DNA from: Herpetosiphon giganteus
GTDB taxonomy: Bacteria; Chloroflexota; Chloroflexia; Chloroflexales; Herpetosiphonaceae
Assembly: GCF_016907925.1 (NCBI RefSeq)
Contig: NZ_JAFBCZ010000022.1
Span: 1-64,000, forward strand
Length of the DNA: 64,000 nt
Direction of reading: 5' to 3'
Both the position numbers and the translations under genes were made by a program. Numbering within the stretch: the stretch's first letter is position 1; every line of letters begins with the position of its first letter. Under the pieces are notes generated by a model. That model was not told the DNA's origin. It did no database searches and was given only the letters and a program-made list of their open reading frames with translations. Positions 54,479 through 63,559 of this stretch are shown piece after piece.

Positions 54479-54566
54479 TGGTGGCAGGCCGATAATCGTA
54501 TACAAACGCTCCAGAATCAACTACTATGAAGCCGAGATGCTTTTGGTTGTGTCAAGGAGAATTTGG

Positions 54567-55802
54567 ATGCAGCATTTAGCGCAAGAACAAAAACCAATTC
54601 CTGCAATTATCAACTTAACTGATCGCCAGTTTAAGGCTGATCCATTTACGGTGTATGCCCGTTTGCGCCGCGATCAGCCAGTGGCCAAAGCCAGACTTGG
54701 CTCGCTGCAAACCTGGATCGTGACCCGCTACGCTGATGTGGTTGAGATTCTGAAAAATGATCGGCTCTTTGTCAAAAACTATAAAAACGCCCAATCGTTG
54801 GAGCAGCAACGCAAACGGCCTTGGATGCCCAAACTCTTTGAGGCGCTTGAATCGAATATGCTCGATCAAGATAGCCCTGACCATGGCCGCTTGCGCGCAT
54901 TAGTGCATAAAGCCTTCACACCCCAACGGGTCGAGGAAATGCGCCCGCGCATTCAACAGATTGCCGAAGCCTTATTAATGAGCACCCAACAACGTGGCCG
55001 AGGCGATTTGATTGCCGATTTTGCCTTGCCATTGCCGCTCACAGTCATCGTTGAATTATTGGGTATTCCCAGCGAAGATCGCCAGAAATTTCATCGCTGG
55101 TCAAAATATGTTTTGAGCACGCCAACGATTGGCAATGTGCTGTTGGCAATTCCCGCGATTATGGCGCAGATGAAATATCTGAAACTGTTATTTGCCCAAC
55201 GCCGCAACGAACCGCAAGCTGATTTGCTGACCGCCTTGGTGCAGGCCGAAGCTGATGGCGATCGGTTCAGCGAAGACGAATTGGTGGCGATGGTCTTTTT
55301 GTTGATGCTGGCTGGCCATGAAACAACCGTCAATTTGCTTTCATCGGGCACGTTGGCCTTGTTGCAAAATCCTGAGCAATTGGCCTTATTGCGCCGTTCG
55401 CCAGAGCTGATCAAATCGGCAGTTGAGGAGTTAGTGCGGTTTACGGCTCCGGTTGAAACCGCCACCGAGCGCTATGCCGCCGAAGATGTAATCGTTGCCG
55501 ATACCAAAATTGCCAAAGGCGATCTGCTATTGGTTGCGTTGGCCTCGGCCAATCGTGATGAGCAGCAATTTTCTCATCCTGATGAACTAGACATAACACG
55601 TGAAAAAAATCGTCATGTTGGCTTTGGGCTGGGCATTCACTACTGTTTAGGAGCGCCATTAGCCCGTATGGAAGCCCAAATTGGGCTGCGATTGCTGTTT
55701 GATCTGCGGCCAAATTTGCGTTTGGCAGTGCCCGCTGCGCAATTGCGCTGGCGCTCAACCGCTGTTGTGCGTGGCTTGCAAAGCTTGCCAGTTGCATGGT
55801 AA
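54567..55802 (+). CDS. Cytochrome P450
   Basis: 411 residues from ATG 54567 after AAGGAG. I-helix oxygen-binding motif LAGHETTVNLL, ExxR in AVEELVRF, the PERF-region arginine in ATERYA, and the heme loop FGLGIHYCLGAPLARMEAQ with the cysteine ligand. It is of the soluble bacterial class that needs ferredoxin; no redox partner or biosynthetic genes are adjacent, so the substrate is unknown. A terminator follows. Confidence 0.92.
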   Translation: MQHLAQEQKPIPAIINLTDRQFKADPFTVYARLRRDQPVAKARLGSLQTWIVTRYADVVEILKNDRLFVKNYKNAQSLEQQRKRPWMPKLFEALESNMLDQDSPDHGRLRALVHKAFTPQRVEEMRPRIQQIAEALLMSTQQRGRGDLIADFALPLPLTVIVELLGIPSEDRQKFHRWSKYVLSTPTIGNVLLAIPAIMAQMKYLKLLFAQRRNEPQADLLTALVQAEADGDRFSEDELVAMVFLLMLAGHETTVNLLSSGTLALLQNPEQLALLRRSPELIKSAVEELVRFTAPVETATERYAAEDVIVADTKIAKGDLLLVALASANRDEQQFSHPDELDITREKNRHVGFGLGIHYCLGAPLARMEAQIGLRLLFDLRPNLRLAVPAAQLRWRSTAVVRGLQSLPVAW

Positions 55803-59180: not shown

Positions 59181-59273
59181 AAAGCTTTTTCTGTTTGGCT
59201 TGATCCACTATAATTGCCAGTGCAGTCTCTGCCCGTAACCAGCATATGCGTGCTTATCACAAAGGATTGTGCA

Positions 59274-60044
59274 ATGTCGCGAGCTACGATTCAGGCGCTC
59301 TTTCTCAAACCAGCCAAGGGTCAGGCGCTGGTTGATGTCAGCGCAATTGGCATGACCATGCAGCAAGGCCATGGAATTGTTGGCGATTGTCAGGGTCATC
59401 CTTTGAGTCCTCGGCAAGTGTTAGTGCTCCGGCGCGAAGATCTTGATGCGTTTAATCTGCACGCAGGCGATTTGCGCGAAAATATTGTGCTAGCAGGGCT
59501 GCCAGAGGCTGAATTCGTGCCCGGTGCAGTGCTGCATGGAGGCAAGTGCGTGCAAATTCGGCTTACTTTTCATTGTGAACCGTGTAAGCGAATCGCCCAT
59601 GTACTTGGCAGGCCAATTAAGGAGATTGTTGGCAAACGCGGAATTTTAGGAACGGTGCTTGCTGGTGGTGAGCTACGTTGTGGCGATGCGGTCCTTGTTG
59701 GCGCGGAGACTCTGCCGCCACTTTCGAATGTACCCTATAACCGATTTTTGAGCTTTATTGCTTCCGTTCCCTATGCTAAAGTTGTAAGCTACAAAGAAAT
59801 TGTGCTTGGGATGGGCGTAGCAAACAGTTTTATGCGGGTTATTCCGCACTATCTGCAAAAAACAGCGCCCGAGCACTATCCGATTCATCGGGTGGTTGAT
59901 ACACAAGGTCGGCTGCTGCCTCACTATATTCCGAACCAAATTGAAGCTTTGCAGGCTGAAGGTATCGCGGTAGTTAAGCTTGATAGCATTGAACCAGCAG
60001 GGTATCAACTCGATCTTAAGCGCTATGGGTGGCGTGGAAAATAG
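59274..60044 (+). CDS. MOSC domain fused to an alkyltransferase-like domain
   Basis: 256 residues from ATG 59274 after AAAGGA. Residues about 8-143 form a MOSC domain, the C-terminal fold of molybdenum-cofactor sulfurase-like proteins (GIVGDCQGHPLSPRQVLVLR, NLHAGDLRENIVLAGL, and the conserved Cys104 in FHCEPCKR). Residues about 153-232 match the DNA-binding half of O6-alkylguanine-DNA alkyltransferase (FLSFIASVPYAKVVSYKEIV, Arg188 in the arginine-finger place, YPIHRVVDTQGRL). The alkyl-accepting cysteine of PCHRV is replaced by Ile204, as in alkyltransferase-like (ATL) proteins, which bind damaged DNA without repairing it. A fusion of the two is unusual. Confidence 0.83.
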   Translation: MSRATIQALFLKPAKGQALVDVSAIGMTMQQGHGIVGDCQGHPLSPRQVLVLRREDLDAFNLHAGDLRENIVLAGLPEAEFVPGAVLHGGKCVQIRLTFHCEPCKRIAHVLGRPIKEIVGKRGILGTVLAGGELRCGDAVLVGAETLPPLSNVPYNRFLSFIASVPYAKVVSYKEIVLGMGVANSFMRVIPHYLQKTAPEHYPIHRVVDTQGRLLPHYIPNQIEALQAEGIAVVKLDSIEPAGYQLDLKRYGWRGK

Positions 60045-60092: not shown

Positions 60093-60305
60093 ATGACGAA
60101 GGAACCAGCGGTTAAAGGCCCAGCTTCCTATTTTCCAGCAATCGAAAAAACCTATGGCCATTCGATTGATCATTGGATGACGATTCTCGCTGGCATGACG
60201 GACAAAACCCATATGCAGATGGTTGCTGCTTTGAAGGCCGAGTATGCTATGGGCCATGGCCATGCGAATGCGCTGGTTGCCTATTATCGCGCCCAAAAGC
60301 AATAG
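60093..60305 (+). CDS. DUF4287-family small protein
   Basis: 70 residues: YFPAIEKTYGHSIDHWMTIL followed by THMQMVAALKAEYAMGHGHA and NALVAYYRAQ. This short helical pattern is that of DUF4287. GAAAGGA lies before the ATG. It follows the MOSC fusion by 48 bases in the same direction. Confidence 0.78.
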   Translation: MTKEPAVKGPASYFPAIEKTYGHSIDHWMTILAGMTDKTHMQMVAALKAEYAMGHGHANALVAYYRAQKQ

Positions 60306-61397: not shown

Positions 61398-62075
61398 TTA
61401 GCCGTTACTCGTTCCTTTATACCCTGTATTGAAAGAAGGATATTCTAAAACGATGATTCCTAATTGGATCGCAAGATTTACCGCATCGGTGCGTGAGCGA
61501 GCCCGTAACTTAACCATCACATTGCTAACATGCGTTTCAATAGTTCGGATACTAATATTTAATACTGCAGCAATTTCTTTATTACTAGCCCCATACGCCA
61601 CTTGGGTTAATACTTCACGCTCGCGATCACTTAATTCTTCATTGGCAGCAAGCCCAAAACGATGATTTTTTGCAACAAGATGAGCAGATATTTCAGCACT
61701 TAAGACGGTTTCACCACGGCAAACTGCCCGAATCGATGCGATGAGTTCTGGGCCTGAGGCATCCTTTAACATATACCCATGAACCCCTACGGCAAAGAGC
61801 GTCCGAACATATTGCTCATAATGGTAACCAGAAAGGATGAGAATTTTTGTATCCAACATAAGCCCGCGAATAGCTCGGGCGACTTCAATCCCGCTCATGC
61901 CTTGGAGGCGAATATCAAGCAAGATAATATCTGGCTTTAAGCGTTGTATAAATTCGATAACCTCGCCACCTTCCCCGCTTTCGGCCACAATTTCGATATC
62001 ATCGGCTGTTGCCAAAAGTGCTTTAGTTCCTTGGCGCAACAACAAATGATCATCTGCTAAAAGTACTCTAATCAT
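61398..62075 (-). CDS. NarL/LuxR-type response regulator
   Basis: 225 residues. Receiver: LLADDHLLLRQGTKALL, phospho-acceptor Asp in DIILLDIRLQGMSGIEVARA, Lys in HGYMLKDASGPE. LuxR-type HTH: LSDREREVLTQVAYGASNKE and IAAVLNISIRTIETHVSNVM. It overlaps the kinase gene by four bases (ATGA), so it is the cognate partner. ATG 62075. Confidence 0.93.
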   Translation of the reverse strand: MIRVLLADDHLLLRQGTKALLATADDIEIVAESGEGGEVIEFIQRLKPDIILLDIRLQGMSGIEVARAIRGLMLDTKILILSGYHYEQYVRTLFAVGVHGYMLKDASGPELIASIRAVCRGETVLSAEISAHLVAKNHRFGLAANEELSDREREVLTQVAYGASNKEIAAVLNISIRTIETHVSNVMVKLRARSRTDAVNLAIQLGIIVLEYPSFNTGYKGTSNG

Positions 62076-63559
62076 GGAGCTACCTTTTCTAAAGCTAAAG
62101 GGATGGTTGCATGAATTGTTGTCCCCGTTTCTAGACTAGAGGTTATTTGGAGTTTTCCGCCAACATGTTCGATTCGCTCTTTGATGCCAATCAAGCCAAG
62201 ATGCCCATGAGCCATCAAAGCTTTAAGATTTTGTGGCACATCAAAACCTCGGCCATTGTCATGAAGCACGAGTTGAACATGTCCAGCACAAAGATCCAAA
62301 TTGATTTTGATATGTGAGGCTCGACCATGGTGAATACTATTATTAATAGCTTCTTGGGCAGTGCGATATAAGACCAATTCAAGGTGGGGATCAATTGCCA
62401 ATTCATCGATTGATGCATTAAATTCAAGCGAGATAGCGATACCCAAACGATCACTTTGTTCTTGGGCCAATGTATCAAGCGCGGCAATGAGTCCCAAATC
62501 ATCGAGCATCAGTGGGCGCATAGCCATACAGACTCTGCGTAGTTGATCGATCAGGGTATGACTTAATAGATGGCATTGACGAACGACCGAATTTTGATGA
62601 GCATTGATTGCGAGCTGCCGATGCAGGTGAATCGCGGTTTGGAGTGACTCATCATGAAGCTCAGATGCTAACCAGCGTCTTTCCGCTTCTTGAGCGGTTT
62701 GCATCTGCTCATAAAGGTCTTCTAGCGTTTTTGCTTGGGTTTTGAGTTCGAGCTTCAGTTGGCTATTTCGAATAAGGAGCGCAATTTGGCCACCGTAGGC
62801 AAGCAATAGCTCACGATTGGTTAAGTGAAATGGCAAGGAACCTATTTTGGCCGTAATACAAAGATAGCCAACGGTAGAGGTATGGGCTGCGAGCTGAATG
62901 ACCAAAAGTGACTCGTTGTTTGGCAGCACAATGATGCCTTGATGGCGATCCCAAACGACTGACTGAAGCATCTGTTCAATTTCAGCACAGTTGGCACCAA
63001 CACTGCAATGAACCTTGGGAACTGCTTGGAAGGTAGGATCTGCGAGCAAGAGGATGACGGTTTGGGCATTGACTAACGATTGAATCTTATATAAGACGCT
63101 GGTGTAATCGGTATAGATATCCGAAGCAACGGTAAAACCACGCCCAACGTTCAGCCGAATTGTTTGATAGGGATCATCGTTTTGTGTGTCCCGTTGTCTA
63201 AAGAATGATACGAAGGGTGTGGTAAGGGCGTTTTGCTTAGGCGGGATAAAAATCGTCTTAATTGCGATATGAACAACAAGGATTGCAATCCAACCAATCA
63301 AGGCCCAAACCCCATGAAAAAGCAGTAAGCCTAAGGTAAATGTGCCGATTACAAGTGTCCAGAGCGAACGTGACATAAATATGGTATCAAGAAAAGCGCG
63401 TTGATAGCGATTGCGGGGTAAGCTTATCTCAGATAGCTGTCCATCAGAATATCTGATACCACCGCTTTTTAAGTTTATTTTCCGCCATAAAAAATGCTTT
63501 ATGAATGTGCTGGGGAACCTCGTATTTCGTGCGTTAATTGGTGGTTTGTTTGATTCCAT
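62072..63559 (-). CDS. Membrane sensor histidine kinase, HisKA_3 type
   Basis: 495 residues. A polar N-terminus of about 60 residues, two membrane helices (WTLVIGTFTLGLLLF and ALIGWIAILVVHIAI), a GAF-like domain (about 155-290, SLVNAQTVILLLADPTF), a coiled-coil linker, then HisKA_3 (phospho-His in SELHDESLQTAIHLHRQLA) and HATPase (DNGRGFDVPQN, GHLGLIGIKERIEHVGGKL). This is a NarX/DegS-like kinase for the regulator that follows. AAAGGG lies 11 bases before ATG 63559. Confidence 0.92.
   Translation of the reverse strand: MESNKPPINARNTRFPSTFIKHFLWRKINLKSGGIRYSDGQLSEISLPRNRYQRAFLDTIFMSRSLWTLVIGTFTLGLLLFHGVWALIGWIAILVVHIAIKTIFIPPKQNALTTPFVSFFRQRDTQNDDPYQTIRLNVGRGFTVASDIYTDYTSVLYKIQSLVNAQTVILLLADPTFQAVPKVHCSVGANCAEIEQMLQSVVWDRHQGIIVLPNNESLLVIQLAAHTSTVGYLCITAKIGSLPFHLTNRELLLAYGGQIALLIRNSQLKLELKTQAKTLEDLYEQMQTAQEAERRWLASELHDESLQTAIHLHRQLAINAHQNSVVRQCHLLSHTLIDQLRRVCMAMRPLMLDDLGLIAALDTLAQEQSDRLGIAISLEFNASIDELAIDPHLELVLYRTAQEAINNSIHHGRASHIKINLDLCAGHVQLVLHDNGRGFDVPQNLKALMAHGHLGLIGIKERIEHVGGKLQITSSLETGTTIHATIPLALEKVAP

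Follow-up and report, generated by a model that had tools for sequence, protein, structure and literature searches.

The window, a stretch of 64,000 nucleotides from Herpetosiphon giganteus, carries on its forward strand an open reading frame at 59274-60044, which by ORF calling and translation encodes 256 amino acids and ends with a stop codon at 60042-60044. The ATG at 59274 is preceded by a Shine-Dalgarno-like AAAGGA at 59261-59266. The product joins a MOSC domain to a C-terminal domain resembling O6-alkylguanine alkyltransferases (AGTs) and alkyltransferase-like (ATL) proteins, and the following features were assigned at the locus.

59274-60044, + strand: MOSC-ATL fusion gene, 256 amino acids plus stop, with the Shine-Dalgarno-like AAAGGA upstream; dN/dS 0.19
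59274-59711, + strand: MOSC domain, residues 1-146 (Pfam core 47-140, at 59412-59693), with fold matches to YiiM and YuaD
59571-59588, + strand: HCEPCK motif, residues 100-105; Cys104 (59583-59585) is the MOSC-family cysteine
59733-60041, + strand: ATL-derived C-terminal domain, residues 154-256, matching PF01035, with Atl1 as best PDB match
59790-59792, + strand: Tyr173, equivalent to the flipping Tyr25 of Atl1; Tyr in 31/33 fusions
59826-59837, + strand: Ser185-Phe186-Met187-Arg188, the ATL Arg-finger motif, aligned with S-W-x-R of YiiM; Arg188 in 33/33 fusions
59844-59846, + strand: Pro191, replacing the minor-groove Gly; Pro in 33/33 fusions, Gly in 14/14 ATLs and 11/12 AGTs
59883-59891, + strand: Ile204-His205-Arg206; Ile replaces the AGT Cys or ATL Trp, and Ile, Val or Leu occurs in 33/33 fusions
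60003-60032, + strand: ATL-like C-terminal tail YQLDLKRYGW, aligned with YKLNLPEYMW of Atl1
60093-60305, + strand: DUF4287 gene, 70 amino acids, 48 bp downstream of the fusion (PF14117, E 1.3e-21)

Domain searches returned PF03473 (MOSC) at residues 47-140 (E 2.8e-9, 37.5 bits, cut-off 22.7) and PF01035 (DNA_binding_1) at residues 156-231 (E 1.1e-7, 32 bits, cut-off 27). Both matches exceed the Pfam cut-offs, thus confirming the two-domain protein described in the initial annotation. The AlphaFold model of the full fusion showed a pLDDT of 83.7 and a pTM of 0.68, with uncertain geometry between the domains. Comparison with the H. geysericola fusion, whose stop codon lies a few residues ahead of the end of the window protein, gave dN/dS values of 0.19 for the whole gene, 0.175 for the MOSC part and 0.194 for the ATL part. 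Purifying selection acts on both domains, and the whole-gene value ruled out a pseudogene reading of the window copy.

The DUF4287 gene was found in all six Herpetosiphon genomes and adjoins the fusion in the three that carry it. This pairing holds although the flanks differ between the window and the H. geysericola locus, and the DUF4287 gene is a probable operon partner of the fusion in Herpetosiphon. Translations from the flanking regions of the window showed a cytochrome P450-like reading frame at 54537-55802 and, on the minus strand at 61398-63559, a sensor kinase with a LuxR-type response regulator.

Distribution of the fusion

The search for the fusion in other genomes, as the initial annotation had proposed, led to a set of 33 fused homologues, window protein included, mostly 40-45% identical to the latter. 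Carriers are Herpetosiphon, Nostocales and other cyanobacteria, including Pseudanabaena, and one Bacteroidota MAG. Divergent cyanobacterial fusions were added by a sampled survey, which detected them in 7 of 292 genomes of the phylum (E < 1e-50), while among 350 Chloroflexota genomes sampled the fusion was confined to three Herpetosiphon species, that is to three of the six Herpetosiphon genomes. In cyanobacteria the fusion is often plasmid-borne, with nine plasmid records; on the Gloeothece plasmid Cy782202 (locus L134, 3978-6768) its gene starts 50 bp after parA-parB on the same strand. The patchy distribution, which includes conjugative plasmids, suggests horizontal spread.

An assembly artefact was ruled out by the recurrence of the fusion, which is present in 33 sequences spanning several phyla. 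Separate MOSC and ATL genes, the alternative arrangement sought in relatives, occur only in H. llansteffanensis, where a 14-bp tandem duplication (locus L017, 6350-6480) shifts the frame and leaves two overlapping reading frames. In Calothrix brevissima (locus L024, 5995-6765) a TAG codon interrupts the ATL part after RALPI, just past the helix-turn-helix (HTH), near the point at which the short sister proteins described below end. A viral origin was set aside, as phages returned one weak match of half length, and so was a role in anti-phage defence, for which PADLOC gave no hits.

Literature searches for both terms, with subscription papers mostly outside their coverage, returned no paper on a fusion of MOSC and alkyltransferase domains. 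A review of MOSC proteins lists 3-alpha, MOSC_N, ferredoxin, flavin, NifS, MoaB and XdhC partners and no alkyltransferase (PMC10637980), and an alkyltransferase review, where it treats fusions, gives endonuclease V and histone-like proteins as partners (PMC10779285). The MOSC-ATL architecture is conserved, real and apparently so far undescribed.

The alkyltransferase-derived domain

The C-terminal part was compared residue by residue among the 33 fusions, 14 standalone ATLs and 12 AGTs. Its best PDB sequence match was Schizosaccharomyces pombe Atl1, with E values of 1.3e-5 for the single sequence and 1e-9 for the family profile, and Foldseek aligned this part of the model with Atl1 at a TM score of 0.80-0.83 (on target). 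Together with the PF01035 match, these data confirmed the presence of the AGT C-terminal DNA-binding fold, as initially annotated. The motif YPIHRVV (residues 202-208) and Arg188 were likewise correctly assigned, Ile204 being aligned with the AGT cysteine and with Trp56 of Atl1.

The annotation had equated the exchange of Cys for Ile with that seen in ATL proteins. The kinship and the loss of the cysteine stand, whereas the residue differs, since Trp occupies this position in 14/14 standalone ATLs and in 0/33 fusions. The window protein reads PIHR instead of the PCHR of AGTs and the active-site cysteine is absent from all 33 fusions, so an active alkyltransferase was ruled out. The plasmid records of the fusion are annotated as 'MGMT family protein' or hypothetical; because proteins devoid of the cysteine cannot be methyltransferases of known kind, those under the former label deserve a better name.

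The likeness to ATLs is further reduced in the recognition helix, where Pro191 takes the place of the minor-groove Gly and the Ala equivalent to Ala44 of Atl1 is Tyr, Met or Leu in 33/33 fusions, mostly Tyr. In human AGT, small helix residues sit in the DNA minor groove. As these are replaced, ordinary AGT-style DNA docking should be disturbed in the fusions. The active-site loop is also shorter than in ATLs and AGTs. Conserved elements include, besides Arg188 and Tyr173, the His (32/33) and Arg (33/33) of the PxHR motif and Glu229 (33/33), while the position aligned with Arg69 of Atl1 is Tyr or His in the fusions and likewise not Arg in the local ATLs compared. In the tree, the fusions formed one clade (support 100/99) with a long stem (2.41), sister to the ATL clade and outside it (fusions plus ATLs, 89/70). 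A single origin of the fusion would fit this topology, which places the C-terminal domain in what appears to be a separate clade beside the ATLs rather than among ordinary ATLs.

Shorter sister proteins were detected in Argonema, Bradyrhizobium, Shewanella and another genome of the Shewanella phylum (G965). They have the same MOSC type followed by the HTH half only, e.g. GLSKSYARVLPTLLKK, and end ahead of the HR loop. Since the G965 protein still matches PF01035 weakly (profile positions 3-37, E 0.004), truncation of an ATL domain would be the best reading of the short form. For Argonema a confident model (pLDDT 89.6, pTM 0.84) returned YiiM structures as best PDB folds. Because the sister family keeps only the HTH half, the HTH appears to be the part retained with MOSC and the lesion pocket seems dispensable. 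In Argonema (locus L045, 761-3401) the short gene lies between, on one side, a PRTRC ThiF-like gene and a gene that gave no hits in Pfam or NCBIfam and nothing convincing in the PDB and, on the other, adenylate kinase; the unmatched gene recurs near the Shewanella short form (locus L048, 4442-5089).

These results bear on the initial view of the protein as a damage sensor, in which the ATL domain would flip O6-alkylguanine or another lesion and recruit nucleotide excision repair, with MOSC as an accessory arm. The invariant Arg finger, the flipping Tyr, the HR and Glu residues, the ATL-type tail, the sister position to the ATL clade and the structural match to Atl1 agree with it. However, the helix substitutions and the shortened, Trp-less active-site loop argue against it, as do the loss of the pocket half in the sister family and the lack of UvrA, UvrB and UvrC among the neighbour families listed (25 of 113 families in one of the scans), which leaves the proposed genomic link to UvrABC and the damage flag without genomic support. 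The host also encodes one normal ATL and two AGTs with the PCHR cysteine, which would make a plain ATL function superfluous. We therefore regard a damage sensor as unlikely. The standalone ATL of the host (locus L125, 327-701) reads AWWRVV rather than PWHRV.

Somewhat less likely still is a DNA-binding regulator or plasmid accessory factor, whose HTH would bind a specific DNA sequence while MOSC senses the molybdenum cofactor (Moco) or another ligand. The HTH is indeed the most persistent piece of the C-terminal domain, and the nine plasmid records, one with the fusion directly after parA-parB, and the short form adjoining a PRTRC ThiF-like gene are in line with such a role, but the recognition helix carries bulky substitutions and no divergently transcribed target gene is conserved across lineages.

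The MOSC domain and a proposed function

The MOSC cysteine is retained, as the initial annotation had noted: Cys104 is invariant in fusions and short forms, together with Cys101, Glu102, Arg47 and Asn70, and its aligned counterpart in YiiM is the PC cysteine. The nearest MOSC folds for the fusion model were YiiM and YuaD. Superpositions on YiiM gave an rmsd of 6-9 Å, too high for the position of a cap to be derived. When the family was compared with YiiM-type proteins by HHalign, the match had a probability of 95.9% (E 5.5e-9) and reached the C-terminal bundle, pairing S-Y/F-x-R with S-W-x-R, a pairing that is weak in sequence and was obtained by extension with a low mact setting; it was reproduced when the short-form profile alone was aligned with E. 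coli YiiM (E 0.19). The 3-alpha domain returned no Pfam hit in fusions or short forms, the likeness to YiiM in this part lying at the level of motif alignment only. The YiiM cavity residues Gln115 and Arg117 are not kept, the family having the HCEPC motif instead.

In YiiM, modelled Moco is ringed by Arg55, Ala56, Asn87, Gln115, Arg117, Ser118, Ser200 and Trp201, Cys120 lies near its metal, and 6-hydroxylaminopurine is a reduction substrate (PMC5818509). YiiM and YcbX, the characterised bacterial MOSC proteins, are Moco N-reductases (PMC10637980), and characterised MOSC proteins of similar fold reduce N-hydroxylated bases via the molybdenum cofactor (PMC5818509, PMC10637980). The sulfur-transfer arm initially suggested reflects an early guess for MOSC domains.

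The reading that we tentatively favour, plausible though short of probable, is a Moco reductase of N-hydroxylated bases or nucleotides with an ATL-derived cap over the cofactor cavity. The MOSC barrel would bind Moco with the metal at Cys104, while Arg47, Asn70 and, from the ATL HTH, the Ser-aromatic-x-Arg motif would hold the pterin and phosphate. The HTH helix would act as a lid on the cavity, a role played in YiiM by the 3-alpha domain, and the remodelled ATL pocket (Ile204, His205, Glu229) may help to hold a purine or pyrimidine base, so that N-hydroxylated nucleobases or nucleotides could be reduced back to normal ones. For the fusion protein we infer Moco binding, the reductase chemistry, the substrate and the cap role, in which the ATL-derived HTH would stand in for the YiiM cap.

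This proposal draws on the YiiM-type folds, the invariant Arg47, Asn70 and Cys104, the S-W-x-R pairing and the HTH kept by the sister family. Neighbours from nucleotide metabolism at some loci (NUDIX, HD 5'-deoxynucleotidase-like and adenylate kinase) also count in its favour, as does a host gene for MoaA of Moco synthesis, because of which Moco is likely available. On the other hand, the uncertain geometry between the domains, the high rmsd on YiiM, the weak S-W-x-R pairing and the loss of Gln115 and Arg117 weigh against it. Moreover, no electron donor was identified, the host has further MOSC proteins of YiiM-like and YcbX/mARC-like type, which puts the need for another in doubt, and the neighbours from nucleotide metabolism change from lineage to lineage. 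Neighbours outside Herpetosiphon vary, comprising PAP_fibrillin (14 Nostoc loci), NUDIX (3 loci), an HD 5'-deoxynucleotidase-like protein, adenylate kinase and Fpg, SurE, ParAB and PRTRC ThiF. On balance, a nucleobase-detoxifying enzyme is most likely, ahead of a simple damage flag.

A sulfur carrier or helper of Moco biosynthesis, with the CEPC cysteines carrying persulfide or passing on Moco and the ATL domain docking, has a slimmer chance than either DNA-binding role discussed above. The invariance of both Cys101 and Cys104, a weak NCBIfam match to MoaC/MOSC proteins and the first proposal for MOSC as a metal-sulfur cluster biosynthesis domain (PMC10637980) speak for it, and the N-reductase activity of YiiM and YcbX and the lack of Moco, NifS and sulfur genes in the listed neighbour families (25 of 113 families in one of the scans) against it.

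The least probable of the readings considered is direct-reversal DNA repair, in which N-hydroxylated bases, flipped from DNA by the ATL-derived domain, would be reduced in place at the adjoining MOSC molybdenum centre; Moco N-reductases act on free base analogues, and we know of no molybdenum enzyme of DNA repair. If true, this would be a direct-reversal repair enzyme of a new type, and a conserved protein that travels on plasmids and combines MOSC with a lesion-recognition fold makes molybdenum DNA repair testable with one purified protein. The remodelled pocket offers, moreover, a naturally occurring test of what an ATL fold is able to bind in the absence of Cys or Trp.

Comparison with known systems

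With YiiM of E. coli and G. stearothermophilus, which consists of MOSC and 3-alpha domains, the fusion shares the MOSC fold, the cysteine and the cavity Arg and Asn, and the C-terminal helical bundle of YiiM with its S-aromatic-x-R motif has a counterpart in the fusion. The fusion differs from YiiM in the absence of a 3-alpha Pfam hit, in the HCEPC motif that replaces Gln115/Arg117 and in its longer, ATL-derived C-terminal domain. The ATLs (S. pombe Atl1, E. coli ATL and V. parahaemolyticus 2kif) have in common with the fusions the fold, the Arg finger, the flipping Tyr, the missing cysteine and the C-terminal Y-W tail. In the fusions, by contrast, Trp gives way to Ile, Val or Leu, the recognition helix has Pro where ATLs have Gly, and the active-site loop is shortened; they are also joined to MOSC and form a clade apart. 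Archaeal AGT/ATL-endonuclease V fusions, e.g. that of Ferroplasma, are a further natural case in which another enzyme carries a C-terminal domain of alkyltransferase type; their partner is endonuclease V, here replaced by MOSC, and the AGT-EndoV protein of Ferroplasma is active as an alkyltransferase.
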